Notes under the pieces: model-generated
Database searches by the model: none
The model's input: only the letters and a program-made list of their open reading frames with translations
Told to the model about the DNA's origin: nothing
Source: Sulfuricurvum sp.
GTDB taxonomy: Bacteria > Campylobacterota > Campylobacteria > Campylobacterales > Sulfurimonadaceae
Reading direction: 5' to 3'
Length of the DNA: 64,000 nt
Assembly: GCA_028710885.1 (NCBI GenBank)
Contig: JAQTTG010000002.1
Coordinates: forward strand, 62,001 to 126,000
Part shown: positions 7,892 through 26,949 of the stretch, one piece after another
Position numbering within the stretch: position 1 is the first letter of the stretch
How the letters are laid out: each line of letters opens with the position of its first letter
Translations under genes and position numbers: made by a program

Positions 7892-8820
7892 ACGAACTCC
7901 TTTTTTATCATTAATATTATCTCATCGACAGCACTCTGTCTCTCATCGTTTTTTAACTGTGCACCAGCTCTATTTATATGTCCGCCACCATTAAACGGAG
8001 CCATAATTTTTGATGCGTCAATCGATCCATCTGTTCGCAAAGAGAGCTTTGCCCCACCATATGGGTGGTCAATTTTCATCAATCCAGCTTTTACTGTATA
8101 CATCCGTAAAGCTTCCTCTAAAATCAGTTTACACTCCGGAATCGTGGCACCTGAGTCTTCCAAATGAGAAAGCTGAACATCAAAAAATGCCAACTGACCA
8201 TCCAATAAAATCTTCATCTCCCTAAACAGTGTTCCGCGTAATCTCATCGAAGCCAAAGAACGTCGATTATAAAGCCACTCAACACACAACGCATGATCGG
8301 CTCCAAAACCCAATAATGCCTGCGCCGTTGCAAATGTTGTCACATCACATCTAAATGCGCTAAAACACTTTGAATCATCCAAAAGCCCAGCATAAAGAGA
8401 AAGCGCCATTTTACCATTGATTTTTATACTGTTGGCAACAAAAAAATCATATACAACTTGTGTTGTGCTAATCGCATTCACATCAACAATATTATAAAGT
8501 CCATACAAAACATTACTTTTATGGTGATCAAAATTGATCAGAGGCAATGATGACTCAATTCCAAAACGTTCGTTGCTTCCACAATCAAAACTAATCATAC
8601 AATCTCCCTCTTCAGGAAAACGGTTCGTAATTTTGTCAAACCATGGCAAAAAAGCAAGATCAGGATTAAGAGTCTCAGACGCACAAAAAAGAGTCAGTTT
8701 TTTTTGACTTCGCAATAAATAGGAATAAAATGCGCAAGCGGAACCCATGGAATCGGCATCAGGGTCTTTATGAATAATCAGAATAATGTGTCGGGCAGAA
8801 TCGATTAATGAAAGCGGCAT
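7888..8820 (-). CDS. DHH-DHHA1 family phosphoesterase (NrnA-like)
   Basis: Cytoplasmic manganese phosphoesterase of 310 residues. DHH motifs are in order: HKDPDADSMGS near the N-terminus, SFDCGSNERF, the signature NFDHHKSN, and GLLDDSKCF; the DHHA1 substrate domain ends with GGGHINRAGA. Family members cleave nanoRNAs, pAp or cyclic-dinucleotide products (pGpG, pApA). The frame extends six codons further, but GGGGAA precedes the ATG at 8820. The neighbouring diguanylate cyclases make a role in c-di-GMP breakdown tempting, but that is only context; NrnA-type RNA or pAp hydrolysis is equally likely. Confidence 0.88.
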   Translation of the reverse strand: MPLSLIDSARHIILIIHKDPDADSMGSACAFYSYLLRSQKKLTLFCASETLNPDLAFLPWFDKITNRFPEEGDCMISFDCGSNERFGIESSLPLINFDHHKSNVLYGLYNIVDVNAISTTQVVYDFFVANSIKINGKMALSLYAGLLDDSKCFSAFRCDVTTFATAQALLGFGADHALCVEWLYNRRSLASMRLRGTLFREMKILLDGQLAFFDVQLSHLEDSGATIPECKLILEEALRMYTVKAGLMKIDHPYGGAKLSLRTDGSIDASKIMAPFNGGGHINRAGAQLKNDERQSAVDEIILMIKKEFV

Positions 8821-8848
8821 AGTTCCCCGTTTAAACAATTAAGACGCG

Positions 8849-8854
8849 ATTATA
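8849..8854 (-). promoter_or_regulatory. Candidate -10 box for the DHH phosphoesterase gene
   Basis: TATAAT on the minus strand in the context GGTATAATCGCG, 29 bases before the ATG at 8820. No clear -35. It suggests the DHH-M23 run starts its own transcript rather than continuing from the GGDEF genes. Confidence 0.5.
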
Positions 8855-8869
8855 CCATGCATCAAGCTT

Positions 8870-10843
8870 CTATACCCCATGTAAAGTGTGGAAATAGGTA
8901 ATACGATTACGTCCATCCTCTTTTGAGCGATACATTGCAGCATCAGCATAACGGATAAGAATATCAATATCCGTACTGTCATCAGGATAGACAGTCGCAC
9001 CAATACTCGCACCGATTGAAATACTCAAACCTTCTACCGAAAATGATTCTGTTAACGATGCGAGTATTCGCTCTAACAACAGTGTTGCATCATCAATCGT
9101 GTTAACATCGGTCAATAATAAAACAAATTCATCACCACCAAGACGAGCAATAATATCACTTTGACGCATTTGACGTTCTAGTAAAGATGCCACTTTTTTC
9201 AAAACATAATCACCAATCGAATGTCCATAGTGATCATTAACCCCTTTAAATCCATCCAAATCTAAAAATCCAATAATCGCTTTAGACCCTTTACGTTTTG
9301 AAAGAGCAAGTATCTGTTCTGAGAGTGTCATATAAAGATGTCGATTAGGAAGATTTGTCAGTGGATCATAATTAGCCATATGATGCAGCTGTTCTTCTTG
9401 TTTTTTATGCTCGGTTATATCACTGAAAATGCCAATAAAATTTTCAATTTTACCTGATCCGTCACGGACAGAATCGATCCGTAAATATTCGGCAAACTCC
9501 TCTCCGTTTTTTTTACGATTCCAAATCTCCCCGCGCCACGATCCATGTCCTGCCAATGCCTGATTCATTTGGTCATAAAATTCCATTTCATGACGGTTTG
9601 AGCGCAATAATATCGGTGTACGTCCAATCACCTCTTCTTTTGTAAAACCAGATAATTCACAAAATGCTTCATTCACATCAATAATATTTTTTTTAGCATC
9701 TGTTATCACAATCCCTTCATGTGAATTATGAAATACGTTTGCCGCCCGTTTCAAATAGATTTCCGCCTCTTTGCGAACTGCTATCTGCTCTTCGAGTGCC
9801 GTTGAATTACATTTGAGTATCTTGGCCGTTTTACGCAAATACCACATCAATATAGAGAGAGTAACGATTACAAATCCTAAAAATCCTATCATCAGCATCG
9901 CGTATTTTTGAATAACATCTTTAACTGTAAATGAAGGAGTATTTTCAAAAGGTGGCGCGCGCAACTCTTCCATCAATATACGAATTCCCTCGTACGCCAA
10001 AGGGATACTCCAGCCGTAGTATCCGGCATTTTTAGCTATTTCAGAACCGTATGGAAGGTTTAACAATGCGACCGCAACATCATTGGCGAGGACTGGGTCA
10101 GTCTCCTTGAAAGCTGCAAAAGGCCACTCCGGATAAAGCAGTGTGGAGAGCGCCTGTGGAAAATTATCGATATGCATCGGATGAAGAATCTTAAAATCAC
10201 TCAGAGAAATTTTCCCCTCTTTTGCCATCTTTTCCAATACGCCGGTACGGATAAACCCTACATCCGCGAAACGATGTAAAACGGCATATACAACTTTATC
10301 ATGCGGCATATCTGTAAAAAAGAGCTTTGCATCATCTTTGACATTAAAATTACGGCTCAAGAGCATACTGCTTTGTGCCAAATACCCACCTAAAGAGAGT
10401 TTATCTACTGCAGCAATTTTTTTATTTTTTAAATCTCGTATTTGAGTGATATCATGTCGATCTGAACGGGCGATTACCACCCCTCCAAACTCTTTTAACG
10501 GTACACCTCCAACATTAGCACGAATCAATGTCGCAATGCGTGTAGCATGATACTTTACAGTAAAATAAACATAATGCTCAGGATTGGTAAATGCAAAATC
10601 AAGTTCATGGTGCTCGACTGCTTTGTTAAACTCTTTGTAGCTTAACGGTCGAATCGTAAAATCATGATCGGGGATTTGTTGATGAAGATATTGGGCAAGA
10701 GGTTCCCATTCACGGGCGGTATCGGCTTTGGAACGAAATGCTAAAACACCAATGACAACCGAATCATTATTAGCAAAAAGTACCTCAGCAAATCCAAAAA
10801 ATAGAATTACCATTAATATAAGATTACGCATAAGTTTATTCAT
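8870..10843 (-). CDS. Diguanylate cyclase with PhnD-like periplasmic binding domain, PAS and GGDEF
   Basis: Predicted membrane c-di-GMP synthase of about 657 residues. In order: a signal peptide or first membrane helix (about 1-25), a PhnD/SsuA-like type-2 periplasmic binding domain (about 30-290; begins VVIGVLAFRSKADTAREWEPLA), a membrane helix near residue 310, a PAS domain with HNSHEGIVITDA, and a C-terminal GGDEF domain with ARLGGDEF. An RQSD inhibitory site lies five residues before GGDEF, so product feedback is likely. The first ATG (10855) overlaps the GAGGT site, so I chose 10843. PhnD-type domains bind phosphonates or oxyanions in transporters; here the ligand is unknown. The PAS-GGDEF part closely resembles the upstream gene, suggesting duplication. 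Confidence 0.88.
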   Translation of the reverse strand: MNKLMRNLILMVILFFGFAEVLFANNDSVVIGVLAFRSKADTAREWEPLAQYLHQQIPDHDFTIRPLSYKEFNKAVEHHELDFAFTNPEHYVYFTVKYHATRIATLIRANVGGVPLKEFGGVVIARSDRHDITQIRDLKNKKIAAVDKLSLGGYLAQSSMLLSRNFNVKDDAKLFFTDMPHDKVVYAVLHRFADVGFIRTGVLEKMAKEGKISLSDFKILHPMHIDNFPQALSTLLYPEWPFAAFKETDPVLANDVAVALLNLPYGSEIAKNAGYYGWSIPLAYEGIRILMEELRAPPFENTPSFTVKDVIQKYAMLMIGFLGFVIVTLSILMWYLRKTAKILKCNSTALEEQIAVRKEAEIYLKRAANVFHNSHEGIVITDAKKNIIDVNEAFCELSGFTKEEVIGRTPILLRSNRHEMEFYDQMNQALAGHGSWRGEIWNRKKNGEEFAEYLRIDSVRDGSGKIENFIGIFSDITEHKKQEEQLHHMANYDPLTNLPNRHLYMTLSEQILALSKRKGSKAIIGFLDLDGFKGVNDHYGHSIGDYVLKKVASLLERQMRQSDIIARLGGDEFVLLLTDVNTIDDATLLLERILASLTESFSVEGLSISIGASIGATVYPDDSTDIDILIRYADAAMYRSKEDGRNRITYFHTLHGV

Positions 10844-15866: not shown

Positions 15867-17633
15867 TTAGAAACCCCGAGCACCCTTACGTGGACACCCG
15901 CAGTCATAATCCATAATACGGACATTGCTGTTACCGCTGATATTTACATTTTTTTGACGACGAATATAGGCCGATGTAACATCGTACACAGGGCGAGTCA
16001 ATGAATCTTTGAGATTCATACCAGCATTTTGCAAATTGCCGCCCCACGAAGATACTTTATACACTTTAGAATCACTGAGAGGTTTCCCCCCTACCATGAT
16101 ATTTGTAATCCGTTTACCAGAAGTTGCACCAACACGAATCTCATAGGTCACACCACCTAAACGACTCATATCTCCCCCTTGCTGATAGAGTGGATTTGCA
16201 TTAAATACATTATCCGCGATATCTTCGAGTAAACTGCGGATATGACTTCCCAACAATTCAAACGTATAGACGTTTGGATAAGTGATCGCGGTCATGTCAT
16301 ACACATGATCCATCGTGATTGCATCACCTTCTAGCACGGTGGTTCCCCAACGGTACCCCGGTGTGAAAGAGATATCCGAGTCCATCGCATCGATAATCGA
16401 ATCGTTGATCAACTGGTCGAACGTTGAATGGAACGTATCACGTTTGAACAACGTATTTTTCGTAATTCCCAACACTTCAGAAAGTTCTGAATCGTATGGA
16501 GAATAAAGCTCTTTCACCAATTTTTCACCCTCTGGATCAGCAGGAATTAAATTAGACGCCACTGGAATCAATTTATACTCATACCCTTTAACCTTATGGT
16601 TTTGGATATCGATATCCAAACGCCCAACATATTTACCATGACTACCGGCAATCACAATCACAGTATTGTTGATAACTGTCGGTTGCGGCGATGGATCATG
16701 CGTATGACCGCTGAGGATAAAGTCAATCCCTTTTACCTGACGAGCGACCTCTTGGTCAACGCTGAAACCGTCATGCGAGAGGACAACGACACAGTCCACT
16801 TTTTCTTCTTTACGAAGTTTATCTACATACGTTTGAAGCGTATCAAGACGCAATCCGAAGCTCCACCCTTGGGTAAACTCTTTCGGATTAGCTGTAGAAG
16901 TAAACGGAAAAGATTGACCGATGATTCCGATCTTAGCACCGCCACGCTCCATAATAGTATATGGTTCAAAAATCAGCTCTTCAAAATCATCGGCAAATGA
17001 ATCATCTCCGATAATATTTTGAGAGATAAATTTTGCATTGAGCATACTTATCAACTCTTTTACCCGTGTTTTACCATAAGTAAATTCCCAGTGTCCAACC
17101 ATCACATCTACACCAAGATAGTTTTGAGCTTTTACGATCGCTTCACCGGTTGTTTTAAGAGCAACACCCGTCCCTTGCCATGTATCACCTGAATCGAGAA
17201 GGAGAACATTATCTGCTCCACGCTCTTTTTTAATATGATTGATGAGGGTTTTCATGTGAGAAATCCCACCCATTTTTCCAAATTTATGCGCTAAAGCATC
17301 AAAGTTCATAAATGTATCAAAATAGGCATCCAACGTTTTACCGTGTAGCCCATAATGTTTCATAAATGACTCACCACATAAAAATCCCGGAGTACCGGTA
17401 AGATTCGGCGCTGAAATCAACGTCGAAGGCTCACGCCAATAAAGCGGTTTGATATGAGCGTGCATGTCACAAATGTGCAATAATGTCACGTTTCCGCGTG
17501 CATTAAAAGAGTAAATCTCTTTTAATCCCACTTCATCTACTCTCTTAGGCGTTGAAGCAGCTGAAGAGAGACTCGGTAAGCCGATCCCTAACGCAGCCGC
17601 AATGTGAAAAAAATCTCTTCGTGATAAATCCAT
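15867..17633 (-). CDS. soxB: Thiosulfohydrolase SoxB
   Basis: Dimanganese hydrolase that releases sulfate from the SoxY-bound sulfonate; 588 residues. A Tat signal is present (LSRRDFFHIAAALGIG). Metal-site motifs are visible in order: HICDMHAH, LLDSGDTWQGTG, the SoxB-specific GHWEFTYG, SHDG and SGHTHD with a following GSHGKYVGRLD; a 5'-nucleotidase-type C-terminal domain follows. GGGGGAGA precedes the ATG. It follows soxA by about ten bases and ends the core soxXYZAB order typical of Campylobacterota, where soxCD usually sit elsewhere. No soxCD is in this window. Confidence 0.97.
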   Translation of the reverse strand: MDLSRRDFFHIAAALGIGLPSLSSAASTPKRVDEVGLKEIYSFNARGNVTLLHICDMHAHIKPLYWREPSTLISAPNLTGTPGFLCGESFMKHYGLHGKTLDAYFDTFMNFDALAHKFGKMGGISHMKTLINHIKKERGADNVLLLDSGDTWQGTGVALKTTGEAIVKAQNYLGVDVMVGHWEFTYGKTRVKELISMLNAKFISQNIIGDDSFADDFEELIFEPYTIMERGGAKIGIIGQSFPFTSTANPKEFTQGWSFGLRLDTLQTYVDKLRKEEKVDCVVVLSHDGFSVDQEVARQVKGIDFILSGHTHDPSPQPTVINNTVIVIAGSHGKYVGRLDIDIQNHKVKGYEYKLIPVASNLIPADPEGEKLVKELYSPYDSELSEVLGITKNTLFKRDTFHSTFDQLINDSIIDAMDSDISFTPGYRWGTTVLEGDAITMDHVYDMTAITYPNVYTFELLGSHIRSLLEDIADNVFNANPLYQQGGDMSRLGGVTYEIRVGATSGKRITNIMVGGKPLSDSKVYKVSSWGGNLQNAGMNLKDSLTRPVYDVTSAYIRRQKNVNISGNSNVRIMDYDCGCPRKGARGF

Positions 17634-17643
17634 ACTCTCCCCC

Positions 17644-18411
17644 TTAGCGTTTCAAGCCCGGGATTTGAATCTCATTCCCTTTGGTTTTGTTTGTCACGTA
17701 CACTTCGAGAGCTACCATCTCACGTGACCCGAGTGGGATTTTTGCCAACAAAGCATTTTCCATACATTGTTGAAAACGTTTATCGAGAGTTACCATCTGA
17801 CTTTGTGTCATACGGTATGCCGGCCATGTACCCCCCGCTTTATTAACGCCCAAATCTGGAAGCGGCTGCATACGTAAACGCTGACCGATAACATCCGCAC
17901 TGTGACAACTGTTGCACGAAAGTCCGCGTCCACCTCGGCGTTGTTCAAACACCTCTTGACCCAACGTCATCATCTCTTTCATTTGAGCATTTGCTTTTAC
18001 ATCAATATTGGTTTTTTGTCCGTTCGCTAACGATTTGACATACGCCGACATTTTAATGATCTCGTTACTTTCAAGCTTAGGAACGGTTTGTGAACGATCC
18101 ATCATTGCCATTTGAAGCGTTTGGGCTATTGTTACTACTTTTCCTGCAGCTTTCACAACACGTGGAAATCCAGCGAGATATTTAGGAAGATCTTTCTCTT
18201 TAATCCCTAAGGTTTGCGCATATGCAGCATTGCCGATCAGACGGTTAAACATCTCTTCACCTTCGGCCACATCCATTGCCGCAGGATTGTTCTCTAACAT
18301 CTCAGCATACATCGCTTTGTCCGCTTCACTCATACTCATTTTTTCTTCAGCATTTGCATTGCTCAAAAGTGCCAGACACATCAATGCCGCACTTACAGAT
18401 AGATTACGCAT
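17644..18411 (-). CDS. soxA: SoxA c-type cytochrome subunit (single CxxCH)
   Basis: Catalytic subunit of the SoxAX complex, which joins thiosulfate to the SoxY carrier cysteine. 255 residues with a signal peptide (about 1-21). Only one heme motif is visible, CNSCH near residue 175, so this is the mono-heme type rather than the di-heme SoxA of Paracoccus. A conserved Cys in RFQQCMENAL fits the catalytic, persulfide-modified heme ligand. It starts four bases after soxZ, behind AAAGGA. The paired SoxX is at the other end of the same cluster. Confidence 0.95.
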   Translation of the reverse strand: MRNLSVSAALMCLALLSNANAEEKMSMSEADKAMYAEMLENNPAAMDVAEGEEMFNRLIGNAAYAQTLGIKEKDLPKYLAGFPRVVKAAGKVVTIAQTLQMAMMDRSQTVPKLESNEIIKMSAYVKSLANGQKTNIDVKANAQMKEMMTLGQEVFEQRRGGRGLSCNSCHSADVIGQRLRMQPLPDLGVNKAGGTWPAYRMTQSQMVTLDKRFQQCMENALLAKIPLGSREMVALEVYVTNKTKGNEIQIPGLKR

Positions 18412-18414
18412 GGT

Positions 18415-18750
18415 TTATCCTTTTGGAGTAATTTGTTCTGTACTCTCGACACTTTGCCCTTTGTTATCTTTGGCAATAATTTTAAGCATTCCTGCAGCAG
18501 GAACCTTGAAGCTGATAGAGAATAACGGGTTAACCGATAACGATTCCCAAATGACCATTTTGGTGATCACTTGATCATTGAACATAAATTTTACTTCATC
18601 GATATAATGCGCCGGAATCACTTCGCCGGTATCTTTGTTTTTACGCATACCTGTTTCCATCGGATGCATCGCCATAAAGTCAATTTTGACCACTTCGCCA
18701 ACCGCGTATGTCTTTGGTTTGATTTTAATCAGTGTTTTCATCTCTGCCAT
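18415..18750 (-). CDS. soxZ: Sulfur carrier subunit SoxZ
   Basis: 111-residue immunoglobulin-like partner of SoxY. It begins with KIKPKTYAVGEVVKIDFMAMHPMETG, as in known SoxZ proteins, and has no signal peptide; SoxZ is exported together with the Tat substrate SoxY. AAAGGA precedes the ATG. The gap upstream to soxY (144 bases) is unusually long for this cluster and holds inverted repeats, described separately. Confidence 0.95.
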   Translation of the reverse strand: MAEMKTLIKIKPKTYAVGEVVKIDFMAMHPMETGMRKNKDTGEVIPAHYIDEVKFMFNDQVITKMVIWESLSVNPLFSISFKVPAAGMLKIIAKDNKGQSVESTEQITPKG

Positions 18751-18855
18751 AATAAATCCTTTTTTTATCTATTTATTTGAGCGCTAAAGAAATAATATCC
18801 GAGGGGGCACCCCGAATTCATTTAGCTACGCTAGCCGCTAAGGCACTAAAACTTA

Positions 18856-18881
18856 CCTCTTCGAGGCAAAATTAATTTTGC
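18856..18881 (-). repeat. Inverted repeats in the soxY-soxZ gap
   Basis: Two adjacent elements lie a few bases after the soxY stop. One is a small CCTC-TTC-GAGG hairpin (18856-18866), nearly identical to one in the soxX-soxY gap. The other is a perfect 16-base palindrome at 18866-18881 (GCAAAATTAATTTTGC). In the soxY-to-soxZ direction the palindrome comes first. Either could stabilise the soxY message end or act as a partial terminator. Further into the gap, near 18820-18840, a weaker TTAGC/GCTAA repeat is present. The biological role is inferred. Confidence 0.5.
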
Positions 18882-18894
18882 GTTTTTACGATTA

Positions 18895-19368
18895 TCAACC
18901 ACATCCGCCGATAGTTACTTTTACGTTTTGTTTTGCGGTGAGGAATGTTCCATCACTCATCTCTGCAATCGCAACTACATCTTGCGTTCCGCCAAGTTTA
19001 ACGCGAGTACCAAAATAGGCTTCTCCGTTTGCTGGAGTCAAATAAACATTTGCGCATCGGACATTACCGTTTTTAGATGCCAAAATATGAATCGCTTTAA
19101 CAAAGTCTTTACTGCTCATTGGGCTCTCTACTGTTACTTTAACAGGGACAACCGCACCGTTTTCAGCAATCTCAGGAGCAGATATTGCTACTTTTGCAGA
19201 AGCTACCAATGGTTTTCCCCCCGTAATAGCCGCAACAGCGGTATCATAGTTCATCTCATTTGGACTAACAACTTTTTTTGCTTCATCCGCTGCACCTGCG
19301 ATTTGAGGGATTAAGGTAGTACATGCTGCTACCATTCCAAACCCTTTTAAAAATGATCTGCGTTCCAT
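18895..19368 (-). CDS. soxY: Sulfur carrier subunit SoxY
   Basis: 157-residue carrier on which thiosulfate sulfur is oxidised. A Tat signal is visible (ERRSFLKGFGMVAACT), and the protein ends VTIGGCG, the swinging arm with the single carrier Cys next to last. Paracoccus SoxY ends GGCGG, so this arm is one residue shorter. The frame extends to 19386, but AAGGAG lies five bases before the ATG at 19368, which gives the normal Tat N-terminus. Between soxX and soxZ in a one-direction cluster. Confidence 0.95.
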   Translation of the reverse strand: MERRSFLKGFGMVAACTTLIPQIAGAADEAKKVVSPNEMNYDTAVAAITGGKPLVASAKVAISAPEIAENGAVVPVKVTVESPMSSKDFVKAIHILASKNGNVRCANVYLTPANGEAYFGTRVKLGGTQDVVAIAEMSDGTFLTAKQNVKVTIGGCG

Positions 19369-19397
19369 AATTTCTCCTTGGTTCATTATTTCAAAAA

Positions 19398-19416: not shown

Positions 19417-19938
19417 TTATTTTTTACTTGATACGATATATGAGGCCAAATCACATACTTCGCGCTCATTCATCAGACCATTTGTCATATTGATCGTCAT
19501 ATGTGTTACCGGATTGTCTACACGTGCATCCGCAATCTTTTGATATACAAACTCAGCTTTTCGAGCACCACTATCGATAAACACTTTTTTATAGTTGCTC
19601 AAATCCGGACCGATATTACCGTATCCTTTTGAACCTTCGATGTTATGACATGCGACACAGTTACCGAACTGTTTCTCTTTTCCATTAGGTAAAATTTTTA
19701 CCAAGCCTTCTGGTGCAGCCTCTTTTGCATCCTTACCGTTTAGGTTGTGGAAAAAATATTTTCCGCGTGCGATTGCAGCAGGGTCTTCAGTGATACACCC
19801 CTCAGGCATAACGTAACTTTTTGGTGCACCCAGCGCATCTTTTGCCAAAATGGCTGTCGCATCGGGGCTTTCAATAACTGATGAAAGATCCGCCGCTCCC
19901 AAGAGGGTGGCGATCCCAAGCATTATTGCTATTCGCAT
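19417..19938 (-). CDS. soxX: SoxX c-type cytochrome subunit
   Basis: 173-residue mono-heme partner of SoxA. It has a signal peptide (about 1-16), one heme motif CVACH near residue 96, and the SoxX-type GPDLSNYKK segment and a later MTNGLMNEREV that supplies the distal Met region. AAGGAG stands before the ATG at 19938. It is the first gene of the sox cluster, with a candidate -10 box 30 bases upstream. Confidence 0.95.
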   Translation of the reverse strand: MRIAIMLGIATLLGAADLSSVIESPDATAILAKDALGAPKSYVMPEGCITEDPAAIARGKYFFHNLNGKDAKEAAPEGLVKILPNGKEKQFGNCVACHNIEGSKGYGNIGPDLSNYKKVFIDSGARKAEFVYQKIADARVDNPVTHMTINMTNGLMNEREVCDLASYIVSSKK

Positions 19939-19968: not shown

Positions 19969-20000
19969 ATTGTAAAGAAGGAATGTAAAATTAATGTAAA
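19969..20000 (-). promoter_or_regulatory. soxX promoter region with three TTTACA repeats
   Basis: A TACAAT box (19969-19974, minus strand) lies 30 bases before the soxX ATG. Three TTTACA copies on the minus strand (TGTAAA at 19971-19976, 19984-19989 and 19995-20000) overlap and precede it. The two upstream copies are 11 bases apart, about one helical turn, which suits the tandem binding of OmpR-type regulators. The adjacent upstream genes encode such a regulator and a kinase. Promoter call is moderate; operator call is inference. Confidence 0.45.
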
Positions 20001-20013
20001 AAGAGAGGAGAAA

Positions 20014-21177
20014 TTATTTTGCAGCTATCGGGGGATAAAATTTGTAACTAAATATACTCCCTTTTCCATAGAGAGAATTAATCTGTAACTCAATGCCAGC
20101 CTTGTCGATAATCGATTTAACAATGTTTAGACCGATACCAAATCCACCTTTGTCACGGTTTTCTCGATAATAGCGTTCGAAGATACGATTCACATCTTCA
20201 ATCCCGACCCCTTCATCACGAAAGCTCATCTCATAATATTCCTCAAAGCGTTTTAACACTACTTCAATTTTTCCCTCTTCGTGCGAATATTTGATGGCAT
20301 TGGAAAGATTGTTGTCGATAACCCGCTGTAATTGTGTCGGATTAAACATAATATAGACATCTTCTTCTATCTGAGATTCGATGATAATGTTTTTCAAGGC
20401 GGCTACTTCTGAAAAATAATCAATCCTCTCTTGCAAATAACGACTCAAATTAAGACGCTCATATTCAAAAGAGAGACGTTCATTCTTAATCAAATAATCC
20501 ATATCGTTATACAGTGTTGCGAGTGTTTTCGTAGCAGCTTTTATCCGCTGAAGATATTTATTAGTAGGGTTTGAACGATTATAGAGATCAATATTTACAT
20601 TGATAATAGAAAGCGGCGTATTGATTTCGTGCATAGAATCTTTGATAAATTGATCCAACCGTTTATTGATTCTTTGAAATGGGAGGGCAAAACGATCCAG
20701 AAAAAAGAGAGACAAGACAAAAATAAATGCCGCGATGGAGAGGAGAATCATAACAACATCTTGATAAATTCTGGCATACGACAAATTCCCTCCAACTACT
20801 AAATAAGTAGCATCAAAATAGCGATGTTCAGGCAACGCTACAATCAGATAGGCATATCCGTCTTGAACATAATATCCAGCTTTTTGTATCTTTAATTGTG
20901 TTTTTACCAAAGTAAAAATAGGTTTAAAATGTTCATCATACAACCCTGATTGAAAAGAGCGATACCTCGGATATTCAAACGCTTTTTCCTCTTTAGGATC
21001 AAATTCTTCCATCGCACGCAGCACCAAATGAGATTGATGTTTCAATGTGAACTCATACTGGATTTCATTCACATACTTCATATAGGTAACATATAGATAC
21101 GTGGGTATCAACATCAATACGGCAACAAGCATCGTATAGAGGAAAGCGTTTTTTAAAGCGTAGAGATTATCGTTCAA
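20014..21177 (-). CDS. Two-component sensor histidine kinase next to sox
   Basis: About 387 residues with two membrane helices (NAFLYTMLVAVLMLIPTYLY near the N-terminus and ILLSIAAFIFVLSLFF around residue 150) flanking a small periplasmic loop of roughly 100 residues. The H-box is MHEINTPLSI; the ATPase shows NNLSNAIKYS, RDEGVGI and GGFGIGLNIVKS. No HAMP is obvious. The frame opens at TTG 21216 inside the regulator gene; TTG at 21177 gives an 11-base overlap and a GGGA site about seven bases before, so I prefer it. Its three-gene context suggests it senses together with the Cache protein; soxX starts about 75 bases after its stop. Confidence 0.88.
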   Translation of the reverse strand: MNDNLYALKNAFLYTMLVAVLMLIPTYLYVTYMKYVNEIQYEFTLKHQSHLVLRAMEEFDPKEEKAFEYPRYRSFQSGLYDEHFKPIFTLVKTQLKIQKAGYYVQDGYAYLIVALPEHRYFDATYLVVGGNLSYARIYQDVVMILLSIAAFIFVLSLFFLDRFALPFQRINKRLDQFIKDSMHEINTPLSIINVNIDLYNRSNPTNKYLQRIKAATKTLATLYNDMDYLIKNERLSFEYERLNLSRYLQERIDYFSEVAALKNIIIESQIEEDVYIMFNPTQLQRVIDNNLSNAIKYSHEEGKIEVVLKRFEEYYEMSFRDEGVGIEDVNRIFERYYRENRDKGGFGIGLNIVKSIIDKAGIELQINSLYGKGSIFSYKFYPPIAAK

Positions 21178-21820
21178 TGATGTATCCCAACCCGCGACGA
21201 TTTTGAATAATATCAAGAGGAAGTTTTTTACGCAGATTATTTATCTGTACTCGGATATTTGCGGGATCAACATACTCACCCCAGATTTCATCCTGAAACA
21301 TCTCGACTGAGACCACTTGATTCGTATGTTTGAGCAACACGGAAAAAATCTCTTTTTCAGTCTTGCTCAAAGCGATACTTTGAGTATCATGGGTCAATGT
21401 AAAATTTTCGGTATCATAAATCAATCCTTCGCCAAAATCGATTTTGTTTTCTCCATCATGATAAAAACTTTTCAAGGCATGCATAATCCGTATTTGCAAT
21501 TCGGTCAAATCAAAAGGCTTGCGAATATAATCACAACATCCCGATTTATACCCCTCTTGCAAATCACTCACATTGACCATAGATGTTAGAAAAATAGCCG
21601 GCGTTTTATTCCCCTCTTTACGCAATGTCCGCAAAAGATCAAATCCACTCATACCAGGAACATTCACATCGAGAAGAAAAAGGTCAAAGTGGGTTTCATA
21701 AATAGCGTCAAACGCTTTCTCCCCATTTGAAAACCCCATCACTTCATAACCCATCTCTTCTAAAAACTCTGTAATACTGATCCGTAACATGTACTCATCT
21801 TCGAGCAATAATACCCTCAT
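21167..21820 (-). CDS. OmpR/PhoB-type response regulator next to sox
   Basis: 217 residues: a receiver domain with the acidic pair in LLLEDEYM, phospho-Asp in FLLDVNVPG, Thr in FLTSM and Lys in IRKPFD; and a winged-helix DNA-binding domain with SKTEKEIFSVLL and a C-terminal RRGLGYIIER. All phosphorylation residues are present. It overlaps the Cache sensor gene by four bases (ATGA) and the kinase by about eleven, so the three are translationally coupled. The likely target is the soxX promoter with its spaced repeats; that is inference from position. Confidence 0.92.
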   Translation of the reverse strand: MRVLLLEDEYMLRISITEFLEEMGYEVMGFSNGEKAFDAIYETHFDLFLLDVNVPGMSGFDLLRTLRKEGNKTPAIFLTSMVNVSDLQEGYKSGCCDYIRKPFDLTELQIRIMHALKSFYHDGENKIDFGEGLIYDTENFTLTHDTQSIALSKTEKEIFSVLLKHTNQVVSVEMFQDEIWGEYVDPANIRVQINNLRKKLPLDIIQNRRGLGYIIER

Positions 21821-22944
21821 CGGATCTCCCCTTTTATCTCTTTATTCACTTTGTAATTTAACAGTATTCCGATCAATTCTTCTTTGGAATAGGTGTTAAG
21901 CCGATCATGTGCTTCTTGTACAAACAACTCTCGATCTTCAGGAGCCACCGTATCTTTTAAATAAAGCAACTCTTTATCGTATGCACTTTGGAACAAACCA
22001 TCTTTGAGCGATTTTTTGAGCATGATATCATAGAGTTCATTGCGTGAAAGATGGATAAGAAAGGATATATCTTCTTCATCAGAATGGGCATAAGTCTCAA
22101 TTTGTTTGGGAGAAAGCGAAAAAACAAAAGCTCCGATTGTTTCCCCCTCGCCATTTTTCATCGGCTCGTAAAAGAGATACCTCCCTCCACTAAAAACCAC
22201 ACGACTTTGTTCAAGAACTTTGTAATTGACTCCACCTAAAAGATTTAAATCGCTTTGCGTATATTTAGTATTTGCTAAAATAAATTTTTTGCCGATTGAG
22301 GGATTTTCTTGCATAAAAACAGCCGTATCATAAAATCGGTCATCCATGAGAATGTATAAATCAATCCCCAAACGCTCAAAATACTCTTGTGTTGATTCAA
22401 AAAAAGAGACTACCTCAATAAAGCCTATCATTGAATTTTTATTGTAAACCGGCACCGTTGCTTTTACACCCAATTTCCGCCCTACTTCGATCGCCGAACG
22501 GGGATTTTTATGGGTTTGAAAGTAGAGTAAATCGGGACGCTGAAATTCTAAGGGCATTCCCGCGTAAGAATTATCCCAACTACGGGCAAAAATAATAAAA
22601 TCCGAAGTAATAATTTGTGCGCGTATCAAAGAATCGGTATGAACTTTGATCGATTCCATCCCCTCTGATAAAATTTTAAATCCCTTGTCTTCATCATCTT
22701 GTTCGAGGGCATCACTCAATGCAGTGTTCTGAGAGAGGATCAAAGCGTATCGCAAAGCAATAGAACGTTCTTTTTCGAGCTGGTTATTCAATCCCAATGA
22801 GAGTTGATCGCTCAGTCGTTCCAACGTCTGTGACGTAACCTTTTTTTCGAGTTGCCACAATACGATCCCCAATATCGCCATGATGACAAAAAATACAGCG
22901 GCAATCATTTTTTTATTGGCAAGCAGTTTGACCCAACGATCCAT
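21817..22944 (-). CDS. Lone double-Cache sensor protein with no output domain
   Basis: 375 residues. One N-terminal membrane helix (MIAAVFFVIMAILGIVLWQL, about 13-32) is followed only by an apparently periplasmic region. The first ~250 residues of that region fit a dCache_3-like double Cache domain: a long N-terminal helix, then RAQIITSDFIIFARSWD, AGMPLEFQRPDLLYF and VKATVPVYNKNSMIGFIEV. A helical tail of about 100 residues (ISFLIHLSRNELYDIM onward) has no methyl-accepting, GGDEF or kinase motif. It begins in the flhB stop (TAATG) and ends in the regulator start (ATGA). It may pass a signal to the adjacent kinase through the periplasm; ligand unknown. Confidence 0.75.
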   Translation of the reverse strand: MDRWVKLLANKKMIAAVFFVIMAILGIVLWQLEKKVTSQTLERLSDQLSLGLNNQLEKERSIALRYALILSQNTALSDALEQDDEDKGFKILSEGMESIKVHTDSLIRAQIITSDFIIFARSWDNSYAGMPLEFQRPDLLYFQTHKNPRSAIEVGRKLGVKATVPVYNKNSMIGFIEVVSFFESTQEYFERLGIDLYILMDDRFYDTAVFMQENPSIGKKFILANTKYTQSDLNLLGGVNYKVLEQSRVVFSGGRYLFYEPMKNGEGETIGAFVFSLSPKQIETYAHSDEEDISFLIHLSRNELYDIMLKKSLKDGLFQSAYDKELLYLKDTVAPEDRELFVQEAHDRLNTYSKEELIGILLNYKVNKEIKGEIR

Positions 22945-26909: not shown

Positions 26910-26943
26910 CCATCACTTTCACATTTACTTAACAATTCGCCGC

Positions 26944-26949
26944 TACAAT
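26944..26949 (+). promoter_or_regulatory. Candidate -10 box for the OmpA-like lipoprotein gene
   Basis: TACAAT in the context CGCTACAATTCCG, 35 bases before the ATG at 26984. The context matches the tRNA promoter at 43082 (CGCTATAATTCCC). Confidence 0.45.

Follow-up and report, generated by a model that had tools for sequence, protein, structure and literature searches.

A free-standing dCache protein, an OmpR-type regulator and a histidine kinase upstream of soxXYZAB: a candidate three-component system for sox control in Campylobacterota

Thiosulfate oxidation is driven by Sox in Campylobacterota that abound at vents, at redoxclines and in sulfidic waters. How the free-living members regulate their metabolism was described as little known in a review of 2019 (PMC6682613). 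In the window, i.e. the whole stretch of 64,000 nucleotides of Sulfuricurvum DNA that was analysed here, the minus strand carries flhB, followed by a Cache gene, a regulator gene and a kinase gene (the trio), and then soxXYZAB. This order raises the question whether the trio is one unit that controls sox, and what a separate Cache protein could contribute beside a kinase. The following features were assigned:

21817..22944, minus strand: free-standing dCache_3 sensor protein, 375 aa (PF14827 at 6e-12, AlphaFold2, Foldseek, alignments)
21167..21820, minus strand: OmpR/PhoB-type response regulator, 217 aa (PF00072 at 1.4e-25, PF00486 at 8.5e-14)
20014..21177, minus strand: membrane histidine kinase, 387 aa, TTG start (HisKA and HATPase_c, alignments, structure model)
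21824..21829, minus strand: Shine-Dalgarno-like GGGGAG region for the regulator gene, within the last Cache codons (...GEIR; from sequence)
19984..20000, minus strand: predicted operator, direct repeat TTTACA-ttaat-TTTACA with 11-bp period (retained at soxX in genomes with an unlinked trio)
19969..19974, minus strand: TACAAT, predicted to be the -10 element for soxX, 9 bp past the second repeat, no -35 partner
19417..19938, minus strand: soxX, at the head of the operon predicted as target (TIGR04485)
15867..19386, minus strand: soxY, soxZ, soxA and soxB (TIGR04488, TIGR04490, TIGR04484 and TIGR04486, respectively)

Coordinates, gene order and overlaps agreed with a preliminary description of the sequence, which had reported three coupled genes ahead of soxX: a TAATG junction at 22944 joins the flhB stop to the Cache gene start, ATGA (21820–21817) is common to the Cache stop and the regulator start (4-nt overlap), and the regulator gene, ending at 21167, overlaps the kinase gene by 11 nt up to TTG 21177. 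This TTG is most likely the kinase start, since orthologues have an ATG start at the same position; the next in-frame start upstream is TTG 21216. The gap between kinase gene and soxX measures 75 nt.

The Cache protein is laid out as an N-terminal membrane anchor (residues ~12–34), a periplasmic double Cache domain (42–278) and a helical tail (~285–375). Residues 42–278 matched PF14827 (dCache_3) with 6e-12 and 46.1 bits (cut-off 25.7), covering positions 2–234 of the 239-position profile, and the domain profile search returned no output domain, neither kinase nor methyl-accepting, in the 375 residues. AlphaFold2, run with 64 orthologues, gave a dCache fold with a core pLDDT mostly about 90, in which two PAS-like modules are carried by a long N-terminal helix; matches of this model in the PDB (Foldseek) were the sensor domains of DctB, vpHK1S-Z8 and Tlp3. 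The earlier picture of a one-helix protein made of a periplasmic Cache sensor and a helical tail, lacking an output domain, was thereby borne out. Conservation within the protein was highest in the distal module (0.69), and it is in this module that the ligands of other dCache domains bind. Pocket residues R121, W123 and R136 were invariant; as the R-x-W...R residues also occur in a dCache_3 GGDEF protein, they were rejected as a sulfur signature, and the ligand therefore cannot be read from the sequence. In the survey from which dCache_3 was defined, its members were mostly fused to an output domain, i.e. kinases, chemoreceptors and GGDEF proteins (PMC4822843, table 1); such fusion is the usual state of dCache_3 and no requirement of the domain family.

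The helical tail was as well conserved as the sensor modules (mean identity 0.61 for residues 323–365), had low model confidence (pLDDT about 41–69) and gave no significant match in Pfam. If the anchor is the sole membrane helix, the tail lies on the periplasmic side, and it may be a docking element. It is missing from two types of paralogous trio (Tsd and Phs types, see below) and is therefore not essential to the trio architecture. The C-terminal GEIR was set aside as a conserved protein motif, because its codons hold the Shine-Dalgarno sequence of the next gene; part of the C-terminal conservation may thus be translational and not at protein level.

In the regulator, Response_reg and Trans_reg_C domains were identified, with the recognition helix NIRVQINNLRKKL, which is closely similar among sox-type orthologues. 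The kinase contains HisKA, with the invariant His183, and HATPase_c as well as two membrane helices. Receiver and Trans_reg_C regulator next to a HisKA/HATPase kinase is the OmpR-type two-component layout, for which phosphotransfer is predicted. Between the membrane helices of the kinase, the structure model placed a long helix followed by five strands (76–131), a predicted domain of ~100 residues that is conserved and has invariant residues. The preliminary description had left the kinase with only a small periplasmic loop; the region is indeed small, but it is predicted as a five-stranded domain, and the kinase is therefore not sensorless. PDB searches on the fold of this domain returned matches that were taken up by the catalytic core. 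A PhnD-like sensor domain was not found in the kinase, where only HisKA and HATPase families were detected, with ~110 residues between the membrane helices.

The distribution of the trio was determined by tblastn in the fetched relatives together with a Cache-profile scan of all GTDB genomes, and named loci were counted. Trio and sox stood within about 3 kb of each other in 56 named loci (53 within 200 nt, 3 further out), and the same order beside soxXYZAB was present in five genera, Sulfuricurvum, Sulfurimonas, Sulfurovum, Nitratiruptor and Hydrogenimonas; a search for the arrangement in other genomes, as suggested earlier, thus found it conserved. Most other trio loci were interrupted by contig ends. 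Exceptions despite sufficient room were L126 (trio apart from sox) and L136 (regulator and kinase deleted), to which the DsrE-type paralogues L161 and L164 and the broken-frame loci L111 and L156 are added. Of 74 loci in which it could be measured, 73 had the 4-nt Cache/regulator overlap; between regulator and kinase, an overlap of 11 nt was commonest (41 loci, by automatic start calls). Within the family of the window, trio and soxB were present together or absent together, apart from G026, G033 and G054, whose contigs appear fragmentary. Next to the closest kinase homologues (E < 1e-140), a Cache gene adjoined in all genomes but G080, in which Cache gene, regulator-kinase pair and soxX lie on three contigs and for which 8% contamination was noted. 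A separate extracytoplasmic protein is thus conserved alongside kinase and regulator. Cache distances tracked those of regulator and kinase beyond the effect of sox (partial r 0.67–0.83), which supports evolution of the three proteins as a unit but no interface between them; the mirror-tree comparison was set aside as proof of contact, as it yields unit-like evolution only. Distances of the Cache tail were closer to those of the cytoplasmic part of the kinase than to those of its periplasmic part.

Since adjacent genes may be neighbours without regulating each other, a DNA site and the genomes in which trio and soxX are separated are informative. The gap between kinase gene and soxX contains TTTACATTAATTTTACATTCCTTCTTTACAAT (window 20000–19969, minus strand). 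Of 74 distinct regions upstream of soxX, 57 contained an exact TTTACA-N5-TTTACA, compared with 0.015 expected from shuffling, and in 55 of these 57 a TAnnnT box followed at 9 bp from the repeat; across 65 sites, nearly all repeat positions carried 1.6–2 bits. Whole genomes held one to four copies of the exact repeat, and soxX was among the few zero-mismatch matches of the extended pattern. In PhoB/OmpR-type activated promoters, 11-bp direct repeats at a fixed distance from the -10 element replace the -35 element. A sigma-70 scan of the soxX promoter region gave no -35/-10 pair, as is expected for activator-dependent promoters of this type. The predicted operator before soxX is a new element described here. 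For soxCD as a possible target, the soxC profile gave only sub-cut-off relatives in the window's own genome, the loci retrieved around these showed no exact repeat, and this candidate was dropped.

Where the trio was unlinked or displaced, the site stayed directly upstream of soxX, at zero mismatches in G101 (locus L126), G080 and G045 and at one mismatch in G082. In G101, which has the trio on another contig than soxX, the genome held two zero-mismatch matches; in G080, one zero-mismatch match was found among 19 at ≤1 mismatch; in G045, the site at soxX was the single match at ≤1 mismatch; and in G082, it was one of two one-mismatch matches. In all four, soxX therefore still had a site that no other in the genome surpassed in match to the pattern. 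No exact site was found near sox in eight sox-bearing genomes without the trio. From its presence at soxX with a linked or displaced trio and its absence without one, it can be concluded that the operator goes with the trio rather than with sox itself. At L136 (Sulfurimonas SI060_bin9 MAG, 8013–9691), codon 20 of the regulator is joined to the soxX start, with the Cache gene kept and the kinase, the rest of the regulator and the operator lost together; this is either a natural deletion or an assembly artefact. On these comparative grounds, regulation of soxXYZAB by the trio is well supported, and support extends to the earlier proposal of one functional unit linked to sox and to sulfur compounds.

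We consider it probable that the locus encodes a three-component system: a dCache subunit apart from the kinase would inform it, and the regulator would activate soxXYZAB via the TTTACA repeat. The membrane-anchored dCache protein would be the receptor for a ligand in the periplasm; thiosulfate or a close relative such as tetrathionate or polysulfide is the most likely one. Its state would be passed on within the periplasm by contact with the kinase, probably via the anchor helix, the conserved tail and the small periplasmic domain of the kinase, which would then phosphorylate the OmpR-type regulator. We infer that it is this regulator of the trio itself which, once phosphorylated, would bind the TTTACA direct repeat of 11-bp period ahead of soxX, where it would substitute for the missing -35 element and thus activate, not repress, sox. 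In Sulfurovum indicum, transcripts of soxABXY1Z1 were higher on thiosulfate and those of soxCDY2Z2 on elemental sulfur (PMC10045233); the pattern of the former cluster, which bears the trio in other Sulfurovum genomes, fits a thiosulfate-responsive regulator. Against this reading stand the low model confidence of the Cache tail and its closer match in distances to the cytoplasmic part of the kinase, the absence of the tail from Tsd and Phs types, the pocket residues shared with a GGDEF protein, the periplasmic domain by which the kinase might sense unaided, and the Sulfurimonas MAG that has kept only the Cache gene of the trio (L136).

Paralogous trios, each a free-standing dCache_3 gene with a regulator and a kinase related to those of the sox trio, were found beside several other genes. 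Tsd-type trios adjoin TsdA-like dihaem cytochromes (L035, L036, L038, L157), Phs-type trios PhsA-type thiosulfate reductase operons (L037, L040; PhsA NF012032, 1143 bits), DsrE-type trios a porin-DsrE pair (L031, L033, L164) and cytochrome-type trios multihaem cytochromes (L039, L064). The Cache gene may be first, last or convergent, yet the three genes remain next to one another. Repeats with an 11-bp period and a comparable distance to the -10 element were found before the target genes of the DsrE, Phs, Tsd and cytochrome types, often of other sequence (e.g. TTTTCAT-N4-TTTTCAT), and the regulator recognition helices differ among the trio types; the Tsd and Phs repeats are suggestive only, because examples are few and AT-rich. 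By gene content, what the trio neighbours have in common is a link to thiosulfate, tetrathionate, polysulfide or sulfane sulfur. A Campylobacterota class of three-component sensors with a separate dCache receptor can tentatively be proposed, with slightly less than even confidence; it would have diversified by duplication to the sulfur-redox pathways sox, TsdA, PhsA and DsrE, each with its own direct-repeat operator, the sox member sensing thiosulfate via the separate subunit. Three loci of unusual structure were recorded. Two full trios adjoin each other in a Sulfurovum (L157:1739–9751), one of Tsd type, with a porin and a TsdA-like cytochrome, and one of sox type; at L038:6045–8139, the Tsd-type kinase gene is broken by a transposase-like insertion; and at L110:2968–5365, two consecutive stand-alone Cache genes, one Phs-like and one sox-like, stand upstream of the regulator.

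Several other explanations were weighed. The best conserved module of the Cache protein (0.69) is the distal one, which holds the ligand site elsewhere in dCache, and its gene accompanies nearly every kinase of the clade despite altered order and, once, lost linkage; both observations argue against ordinary two-component control, in which sensing would fall to the periplasmic domain of the kinase and the Cache protein would only modulate, as an inhibitor, anchor or stabiliser. As the kinase does have a conserved predicted domain of ~100 residues with invariant residues, and auxiliary kinase-acting proteins that have no demonstrated small ligand exist, e.g. QseG (PMC12691602), we regard this explanation as fairly unlikely and not as negligible. 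The trio might also respond to a non-sulfur cue (redox state, nitrate, an organic acid), with sox as part of a respiratory switch, for which the pocket motif as a general dCache_3 feature and the L039 and L064 trios beside multihaem cytochromes of no known substrate can be cited; given that paralogous trios adjoin enzymes as unrelated as Sox, TsdA-like cytochromes, PhsA and DsrE, and that soxABXYZ is thiosulfate-responsive in one relative (PMC10045233), this is judged unlikely.

Binding of the TTTACA repeat by an OmpR-type regulator other than that of the trio would be compatible with the several such regulators per genome and with the repeats of a candidate small-RNA gene (see below), which are intact in the trio-less genome G014 and degenerate in the trio-bearing G002 and G012. 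The site at soxX, however, tracks the presence of the trio, and variant trios are paired with variant repeats in the same layout, which makes a foreign regulator quite improbable. Hardly credible is a chance neighbourhood, in which the trio would belong to an flhB operon and its position before sox would result from operon drift: the TAATG junction with flhB is found in the window and the genus, but the link between flhB and the trio is essentially genus-only, flhB is mostly absent outside the genus while the trio-sox link persists, and the operator remains at soxX after the trio has moved off. For the same limited linkage, flhB was rejected as a part of the system. A three-component system acting on soxXYZAB thus remains the preferred reading.

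Separate extracytoplasmic proteins that act together with a kinase and a regulator, often with adjacent target genes, are likewise present in TorT-TorS-TorR, LuxP-LuxQ, HbpS-SenS-SenR and GltB-GtrS-GltR. TorT, LuxP and GltB are periplasmic binding proteins, whereas the separate protein described here is a membrane-anchored dCache protein that lacks the periplasmic-binding-protein fold (AlphaFold2, Foldseek) and for which kinase binding is proposed. The two-component system ThsS-ThsR of Shewanella halifaxensis (PMC5408782) also controls an operon for a thiosulfate enzyme and likely shares the ligand class, but ThsS has a fused PhnD-like domain and serves thiosulfate reduction, in contrast to a separate dCache_3 candidate sensor and a predicted target in thiosulfate oxidation. 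RsrS-RsrR of Acidithiobacillus caldus (PMC5093147) controls thiosulfate/tetrathionate oxidation genes in another phylum and for another pathway (S4 intermediate). In QseE-QseG-QseF (PMC12691602), the genes for kinase and regulator are again accompanied by one for an accessory envelope protein. This protein, QseG, is a lipoprotein of the outer membrane and not a Cache protein; its C-terminal domain mediates the activation of QseE. PhoB/OmpR-type promoters have the same 11-bp repeats in place of the -35 element, the repeat here being TTTACA, with predicted binding. In the open-licence literature, neither papers on two-component regulation of sox in Campylobacterota nor a separate dCache receptor with dedicated kinase and regulator across sulfur-redox loci were found. 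For sox, trio and operator provide a defined regulator, a defined DNA site and a class of ligands open to testing; a receptor apart from the kinase would allow ligand binding and signal transfer to be studied separately, and the trio could provide new parts for thiosulfate/tetrathionate biosensors.

Further repeat-like sites were noted elsewhere. A conserved non-coding element divergent to dgt (contig C17:120559–120834 of G000, the genome of the window, equal to L222:6560–6835; L223–L252) was present in 24 of 41 genomes of the genus, a count that includes the sox site itself among its weak matches. It comprises a promoter with a TTTACA/TTAACA-type repeat, then UUCGAUUCUCCUUCG, which is anti-Shine-Dalgarno-like, and then a hairpin; no Rfam match was obtained in four loci. 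The element may encode a small RNA, possibly controlled by a different OmpR-type regulator, and membership of its operator-like site in the sox regulon was found unsupported, as the site does not track the trio. On the plus strand of the window (26918–26949), a repeat of 11-bp period but variant sequence, TTCACA-N5-TTAACA, precedes an OmpA-family gene (26984), with TACAAT following after 9 bp; it looks like the site of a paralogous OmpR-type regulator. Exact TTTACA repeats were also located upstream of an operon for a periplasmic DsrE-like protein and a rhodanese in other Sulfuricurvum (L176, G016 C2:54321; L170, G029 C2:398927), and these operons are possible further members of the regulon.
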